Positions 5,615-6,592 of a stretch of DNA of 36,162 nucleotides are shown here, in pieces; position 1 is the stretch's first letter; each line of letters begins with the position of its first letter. Origin of the DNA: Melioribacter sp. (GTDB taxonomy: Bacteria; Bacteroidota; Ignavibacteria; Ignavibacteriales; Melioribacteraceae); assembly GCA_003155655.1 (NCBI GenBank), contig PMDS01000137.1:1-36162 (forward strand), written 5' to 3'. The notes under the pieces are model-generated. The model saw only the letters and a program-made list of their open reading frames with translations. It was not told where the DNA came from and did no database searches. Made by a program: the position numbers and the translations under genes.

Positions 5615-6592
5615 ATGAAAATTGTTTTTATGGGAACACCGGAATTTGCTATCCCTTCTCTTGAAAAACTTCTTGAAAGCGGATATACTATTTCTGCTGT
5701 TGTTACTGCTCCGGATAAAGAAAGAGGAAGGGGAAAGCAAGTTTCTCCCTCAGCAGTTAAGGAATTTGCATTGAAAAGTAATTTGGAAGTTCTTACACCC
5801 TCTAATTTGAAAGACGAAACTTTTATAAACCAGTTGAAAAAAATGCAGCCTGATTTATTTATAATAGTAGCCTTCAGAATATTGCCAAAGGAAGTTTACT
5901 CCATAGCTAAAAGCTGTGCGTTTAATTTACATGGCTCACTTCTTCCAAAATATAGAGGGGCAGCTCCTATCCAGTGGTCAATAATAAATGGCGAAAAGGA
6001 AACTGGAGTTACTACATTTTATTTAGAAGACAAAGTGGATACAGGCAATATTATCCTGCAAGAAAAAATTGAAATTCATGAGGATGATGATTTCGGTACC
6101 CTTCACGATAAAATGATGATACTCGGCGCTGACGTTGTTTTAAAAACCGTTAAATTGATTGAATCAGGAAATGTTCCAATAACTTTGCAGGATAACACGT
6201 TAGCTTCACCTGCGCCTAAAATAACAAAAGAAATTTGCCAGATCGATTGGAATAAACCGGCAATTGAAATACACAACTTAGTACGAGGTTTATCGCCTTA
6301 TCCGGCAGCGTACTTTAGTTATGATGGTAAAAGTTATAAAGTCTTTAAAACAAAAATAATTGAGAATTTAGAATTTAGAACCTTGCCTACCGACAGGCAG
6401 AATGAGAATAGTATAGATGAAAATTCTCCATTCTCCATTCTCCATTCTCCATTATCAGGTAGTATTCTTCAGACCACGAAAGAGATATTTGTTAATACCG
6501 GCAACGGCTTTCTTCAAATTTTAGAACTGCAGTTAGAAGGAAGGAAGAGAATGACCACAGAAGAATTTTTAAGAGGATATAAATTACCGTAA
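5615..6592 (+). CDS. fmt: Methionyl-tRNA formyltransferase with repeat-derived insertion
   Basis: Transfers a formyl group from 10-formyltetrahydrofolate to Met-tRNAfMet for translation initiation. The N-terminal catalytic domain begins MKIVFMGTPEFA and contains HGSLLPKYRGAAPIQWSI with the SLLP folate-site motif. The C-terminal domain resumes at GSILQTTKEIFV and ends GRKRMTTEEFLRGY. Compared from memory with E. coli Fmt, about 27 residues are inserted between the beta-strand KSYKVFKTKII and GSILQ. At the DNA level this segment consists of tandem heptamers and a palindrome (see the repeat entry), so it looks like repetitive DNA that entered in frame. The rest of the protein appears intact and the enzyme is probably functional. 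It follows def. Confidence 0.95.
   Translation: MKIVFMGTPEFAIPSLEKLLESGYTISAVVTAPDKERGRGKQVSPSAVKEFALKSNLEVLTPSNLKDETFINQLKKMQPDLFIIVAFRILPKEVYSIAKSCAFNLHGSLLPKYRGAAPIQWSIINGEKETGVTTFYLEDKVDTGNIILQEKIEIHEDDDFGTLHDKMMILGADVVLKTVKLIESGNVPITLQDNTLASPAPKITKEICQIDWNKPAIEIHNLVRGLSPYPAAYFSYDGKSYKVFKTKIIENLEFRTLPTDRQNENSIDENSPFSILHSPLSGSILQTTKEIFVNTGNGFLQILELQLEGRKRMTTEEFLRGYKLP
6361..6457 (+). repeat. Composite repeat element inside fmt
   Basis: Within the fmt frame there are two copies of GAATTTA (6364-6377) plus GAA, then the palindrome-bearing segment CTTGCCTACCGACAGGCAG (6382-6400; TGCCT/AGGCA arms 6384-6388 and 6395-6399), and four perfect tandem copies of ATTCTCC (6423-6450). The arms are loosely self-complementary through GAGAAT/ATTCTC. 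The encoded stretch is low-complexity, Asn/Ser/Pro-rich and absent from the E. coli homologue as I recall it. The first 12 bases of the palindromic part match 11 of 12 bases of an intergenic palindrome at 31531. Confidence 0.75.

Follow-up and report, generated by a model that had tools for sequence, protein, structure and literature searches.

Repetitive DNA in frame inside fmt: a very probable copy of a dispersed heptamer repeat in a Melioribacter-related genus

Results

The window analyzed here (the whole stretch of DNA, 36,162 nucleotides) contains an fmt gene with an internal segment that very probably represents one copy of a scattered foldback-type repeat belonging to a Melioribacter-related genus (Ignavibacteria), tolerated in frame, for which we also propose a mode of spread. 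The element would consist of short arrays of ATTCTC[A/C] and its complement, sometimes with a separate palindrome of ca. 21 bases. The host gene (5615..6592, plus strand) is an open frame of 325 aa for methionyl-tRNA formyltransferase, with profile matches to PF00551 (131.6 bits) and PF02911 (93.5 bits) and a TIGR00460 equivalog score of 260.5, against a cut-off of 201.5. It is the only full-length fmt match in its own genome, the three further matches being weak and partial.

The segment begins with a left array of GAATT[TG]A units (6358..6380, plus strand, the GA-rich one), which TRF reported as 3.3 copies of AATTTAG with 93% matches. It is followed by a palindromic module (6382..6400), CTTGCCTACCGACAGGCAG, a variant of the dispersed element TGCCTNCCGGCAGGCA that is translated here as TLPTDRQ, and by a link (6401..6422, plus) holding one further GA-oriented unit (AATGAGAAT). 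The right array (6423..6456, plus) has four perfect ATTCTCC units and a fifth with one mismatch (ATTATC), and encodes NSPFSILHSPLS; the four perfect heptamers described in an earlier note on this DNA were recovered by TRF as 4.4 copies with 100% matches (6423-6453). A repeat search also found 6356-6380 and 6431-6455 to be an inverted pair, 80% complementary. The note's principal claim, repetitive DNA in frame inside fmt, holds, with arrays and palindrome occupying 6358-6456 and the reading frame open across them. The GAATTTA repeats, the palindrome and the ATTCTCC units that it listed are all present, but the two repeats are not unrelated: ATTCTCC is the complement of GGAGAAT, and the arms are one heptamer family in opposite orientation around the palindrome.

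In the PF02911 match 121 residues span 99 profile positions (ca. +22), and the loop between our chosen anchors is 41 aa long, against 16 aa in four of the six out-of-genus genes listed (ca. +25), close to the ca. 27 residues beyond E. coli Fmt given in the earlier note. An AlphaFold model of the window Fmt (54 sequences) has a mean pLDDT of 91.8 and, with low-confidence stretches left out, matches 4iqf (Z 36.8, 1.4 Å over 301) and the tRNA complex 2fmt (Z 36.4, 1.8 Å over 301), that is, the Fmt fold over its full length, C-terminal domain included. The pLDDT of residues 251-280 is only 54-57 by tens. Mapping the segment on the structure, as had been suggested, placed the repeat residues in this low-confidence loop of the C-terminal domain (residues ca. 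250-280, codons 6362..6455, plus strand), between strand 239-249 and strand 284-286. On a fold otherwise so well matched, such values make it probable that the repeat encodes a disordered surface loop.

The heptamer is not restricted to fmt. The draft genome (4.62 Mb in 137 contigs) gave at least 73 matches to a 141-base query at E≤10, with overlaps and both strands counted and 40 of 119 first-look candidates scored, so the search for further copies of the 6361-6457 element, proposed in the earlier note, found many. The pattern ATTCTCNATTCTCNATTCTC had 38 matches, corresponding to 26 arrays by grouping, while the same pattern written backwards had none. Matches to it numbered from 0 to 5 in each of the 11 relatives of the genus, which includes Melioribacter sp. 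isolate MnB_16 (L061), and outside the genus only one of 27 genomes had any (G038, two matches). Opposed arms of one heptamer family could also be recognized by eye in some of the non-genic copies (L009, L019). Other period-7 units were detected by TRF in a 400-kb sample of the same genome (CCGTCTC, GCTTGAA, ACTGATA, CCGATAA, TTTCCCT, and CTAAATA), and together with the 26 arrays they show 7-base tandem arrays at many unrelated sites. The alternative foreseen in the earlier note, residues conserved in diverse relatives and a genome with no other copies, does not describe this segment: other copies exist, and the alignment read shows no conservation of the loop residues beyond the genus.

These figures bear on another reading of the segment, an ordinary variable Fmt loop that is repetitive by chance or by codon bias in AT-rich DNA. 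Loop length does vary outside the genus, the other two genes listed having 23 aa (G022) and 29 aa (G021). However, the window loop has a period-7 score of 24.5 against at most 5 for periods 5, 6, and 8-10 (p 0.0005, the floor of 2000 shuffles that preserve base composition only, not codons), and none of the 78 out-of-genus loci reached p<0.01 (78 of 97 read, the anchor missing in 19; their stretch was 100 nt at a fixed offset, that of the genus the anchored loop). Given this periodicity and the 38 matches against none for the backwards control, the repeat is not a product of chance, and we discount the ordinary-loop reading of the window almost entirely.

A strong general excess of period 7 was, on the other hand, rejected by a strict autocorrelation over all periods, and the excess is only modest. 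In the G000 sample period 7 occurred 1.5 times per 100 kb, and the remaining periods between 5 and 14 gave 0-1.25; in G007 the values were 1.5 and 0, and G018 had 0 throughout. A mixed set of Bacteroidota and other loci gave 1.46 (period 7) and 1.25 (period 14) per 100 kb. Since period-7 arrays also turned up elsewhere in the Bacteroidota, the heptamer array as such is not exclusive to the Melioribacter-related genus. In L157 (1591-1663 and 15757-15838) and L158 (7193-7264), arrays of differing heptamer or 14-base units adjoin.

An ORF scan placed 9 of the 26 arrays within coding sequence: in fmt, in alaS (626.6 bits to TIGR00344), in gltX (572.5 bits to TIGR00464), in five type IX secretion tails and in one glycosyltransferase-like ORF (481 aa, a weak match). 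The other 17 were counted as non-coding, a mainly intergenic distribution like that of dispersed heptamer repeats; three of them are in stop-to-stop ORFs (upstream of the probable start codon in L002 and L003, in an ORF with no family tested in L013), and two are close to a contig end, no more than 165 bases from it (L225, L231). Frames are open through the element in fmt, gltX and the secretion tails, an in-frame condition shared with the palindromic elements of Rickettsia. The model for type IX secretion tails has 99 matches in G000, and no fewer than eight of these have ATTCTC units, all at one turn (e.g., AGTYNSQFSILNSKLSSG): 5 of the 29 tails read carry three units or more (29 of 30, L213 being misread), and three further unit-bearing tails (L018, L224, L228) came from the remaining 69. 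Three tails (L195, L224, L228) also contain the palindrome or a variant of it. At L012:1408-2118 an array connects a truncated type IX tail with a DUF7010-like protein unrelated to it (a match below the Pfam cut-off), in what resembles a fusion point.

A simple rule of the genetic code describes how such arrays can be read. Since 7 is not a multiple of 3, tandem ATTCTCA or ATTCTCC translates into a single cyclic heptapeptide whatever the frame, ILNSQFS or ILHSPFS, respectively, free of stops. Read from the opposite strand, TGAGAAT meets a TGA once per 21 bases in each frame, and GGAGAAT has no stop. ATTCTC is on the coding strand in seven of the nine coding arrays, a bias that we attribute to this stop-free direction. 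On the strand that fmt and gltX use, all three frames of the palindrome are free of stops; on the opposite one, its ACC variant contains a single TAG. The 21 bases of the palindrome, a multiple of both 3 and 7, preserve the codon and the heptamer phase alike. We attribute the tolerance of the arrays to the frame-independent, stop-free heptapeptide together with a site in a loop.

The same sites are used in related species. Of the 12 genomes of the genus, 10 yielded a readable fmt (no full-length match was obtained in G009 or G011), and overall 108 of 110 fmt loci were read. Six of the ten loops of the genus have period 7 at p≤0.003, with ATTCTC-type units in G000, G003, G005, and G007 and GGTCAGT-type units in G004 and G008; those of G001, G002, G006, and G010 show no significant period 7. 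The segment is thus not peculiar to this species (the earlier note had asked whether it is strain-specific), as a heptamer-periodic loop of two unit types is found at the same place in these six members. For gltX, 9 of 11 species of the genus were significant at p≤0.001, one stood at 0.032 and G003 at 0.19, and outside the genus none of the 14 genes read (of 19) was significant. For alaS, all 10 members read (of 12; G003 and G006 are partial) had period 7 at p≤0.002, with GAGAATT-type units in seven, GCAGAAT in G010 and G011, and another unit in G004. Arrays were also present in 4 of the 14 out-of-genus alaS genes read (of 15), three at p 0.0005 and one at 0.007, and part of the signal is therefore older than the genus or recurrent. 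The alaS genes of G004 (C43:10856-12964) and G007 (C7:953585-955720) have a second insertion of ca. 50 residues near query residue 164-174 that splits the match.

Over the stretch read, gltX (without the palindrome) and alaS have the same length as their out-of-genus relatives. The arrays there consequently appear to have taken the place of codons without lengthening the protein, an outcome for which simple insertion does not account. Either an insertion was matched by a deletion, or a repeat was copied in short patches over existing codons. The GGTCAGT unit was also considered as a dispersed unit and is not supported as such, its strict pattern GGTCANTGGTCANTGG having a single match in 12 genomes, the fmt of G008 itself. 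The ATTCTGC unit was found in G010 (one match), G011 (five overlapping matches at one place) and G003 (one), and in none of the other nine genomes, a distribution that lends weak support to the notion of heptamer "dialects."

Between species the fmt site has changed in length. Loops within the genus range from 26 to 41 aa, differing by whole residues, and compared with G005 the window has 14 bp more (two heptamers) to the left of the palindrome. As a result of these extra bases the palindrome is read as TLPTDRQ in the window and as NLAYRQA in G005; if both palindromes share one origin, the frame change would have been compensated further to the right, within the loop. The earlier note had left the locus as either frozen or a source of variation, and between species it is not frozen. 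The 14-bp difference and the four perfect in-frame 7-base units, a kind able to slip, are what a phase-variable contingency locus would offer, gain or loss of ATTCTCC toggling the C-terminal domain of Fmt. But the frames of all 10 readable fmt genes (of 12 genomes) are open, with loops that differ by complete codons, four units are short for slippage, and Fmt is a housekeeping enzyme, not the product of a surface gene. We consider a contingency locus highly improbable.

Retention of the site in most members of the genus read could also mean that the repeat has acquired a function, either as a loop under selection for contact with tRNA or as a hairpin in the mRNA that tunes translation. Two of the other host genes, alaS and gltX, encode aminoacyl-tRNA synthetases, and the arms of the element can pair, with RNA z-scores of -2.57 in the window and -4.74 in L061. 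Against this, the hairpin is not evident in G007 (z -0.07, for a folded piece that starts inside the element and extends well past it), sequence and unit type differ between species, the loop is of low confidence in the AlphaFold model, and secretion tails and the glycosyltransferase-like ORF host arrays too, so that the hosts are not translation genes only. A conserved RNA hairpin was rejected on these inconsistent z-scores, and an acquired function in general seems to us distinctly unlikely. Rfam at gathering thresholds returned only two tRNAs for the whole window; the element fits no described RNA family at that threshold.

The palindrome is a module separate from the arrays. TGCCTNCCGGCAGGCA is found in 21 of 39 genomes, including some without a match to the array pattern. 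In the gltX of G008 and G010 the alignment shows exactly 21 added bases, CTTGCCTRCCGGCAGGCAGGT, inside the array, with a clean empty site in the aligned genes of G000, G001, G005, G007, and G009; altogether the palindrome is absent from the gltX of 9 of 11 species, five of these nine aligned. The fmt tree pairs G008 with its sister G007 (97/92) and joins G010 to G005 and G001 (97/94). Since G008 and G010 fall in separate groups, two gains are the simplest history, and losses could also account for the pattern.

Short dispersed palindromes are known as REP sequences, which are associated with RAYT transposases, and a Y1-family tyrosine transposase of this type might move the palindrome, with the arrays carried along. 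The spread over 21 genomes, the exact filled and empty site and the 10 Y1_Tnp matches in the own genome would all suit it. However, none of these 10 Y1_Tnp loci (1937-3354 bases each) contains an array or paired palindrome under the patterns used, no Y1 gene was found beside the palindrome or the arrays in the stretches read, and no target duplication, the mark of a MITE, is evident around the 21 bases added to gltX. We regard a REP/RAYT-type origin as unlikely.

Some other palindrome sites have features of their own. In L270, L277, L279, and L288 a partial tRNA-like 5' half is interrupted in its D-loop by the palindrome, at position 1501 (in L277, for instance, GCCGGGGTGGCGGAA - palindrome - TTGGTAGACGC), and each locus has an intact tRNA-Leu or tRNA-Thr gene of like 5' sequence within ca. 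300 bases. In L271, L273, and L274 it lies near 1500 in the loop of terminator-like inverted repeats (by eye), as if hairpin loops were favored.

Discussion

We very much favor a dispersed repeat tolerated in frame, and we propose the following course of events. Array copies that arrive in surface loops or between strands would be tolerated, and selection would then remove net frame changes only, so that gain, loss and exchange of units would go on as long as the sum remains divisible by three. Fmt would thereby have acquired an extended loop, probably disordered and serving no necessary function itself. The arrays themselves would spread not by a dedicated transposase but by short-patch copying, i.e., template switching or gene conversion between repeats. 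More tentatively, it is possible, if rather doubtful, that coding loops are repeatedly rewritten in place by the current heptamer "dialect," with no change of length in gltX and alaS, and that the arrays act as landing sites for the palindrome. If this were true, repeat-templated patch copying would overwrite coding DNA, and heptamer arrays would receive a separate 21-base palindrome that preserves both the frame and the heptamer phase.

On the dispersed-repeat reading this is a clean natural case in which repetitive DNA has become part of conserved housekeeping enzymes, and related species provide both filled and empty sites. The rule that makes it work is simple: a repeat unit without stops, if three does not divide its length, yields one peptide regardless of frame. 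It thereby becomes possible to test how bacterial heptamer repeats arise and spread.

The heptanucleotide repeats of Calothrix, which we take to be those named STRR, belong among the bacterial heptamers to be compared; they are mentioned in PMC4692102. The same source describes the GGGNATC heptamers of Xanthomonas and Nostoc as G-rich, quadruplex-forming and under-represented in coding regions (Rehm, 2015). As described there, they resemble ours in being dispersed bacterial heptamer arrays with one variable position in the unit, but ATTCTC[A/C] has no such G tract. Also comparable are the TAACTGA direct repeats known in Beggiatoaceae, Cyanobacteria and Bacteroidetes (MacGregor, 2015, PMC4679880), dispersed arrays that are stop-free in one orientation only. 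Where these fall within ORFs, protein ends and short hypothetical proteins are the usual sites, and in the main genome of that study most arrays are intergenic before start codons (PMC4679880). Dispersed 7-base arrays with one stop-free orientation are common to both, and the ACTGATA unit of our genome is TAACTGA in another phase; what differs is our ATTCTC[A/C] unit and its placement within housekeeping enzymes, at positions that members of a genus have in common.

The palindromic elements of Rickettsia are in-frame insertions in unrelated metabolic genes with protein folding apparently tolerated, each of ca. 150 bp and with an ORF for a conserved peptide (Ogata 2000/2002, via PMC10969869). 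The likeness to our case is that repeats are tolerated in frame within genes (PMC10969869). In contrast, we have 7-bp arrays plus a 21-bp palindrome rather than an element of ca. 150 bp, and an array peptide that is independent of frame. A literature search on heptamer arrays in coding genes and on palindromic elements gave, among the matches listed and judging by title or opening of the abstract, none that dealt with heptamer arrays of Ignavibacteria or of the genes fmt, gltX or alaS. By analogy, the element would work like the palindromic elements of Rickettsia, and its size and build suggest that it belongs with the bacterial heptamer repeats, here in a form that occupies conserved enzymes in much of one genus.
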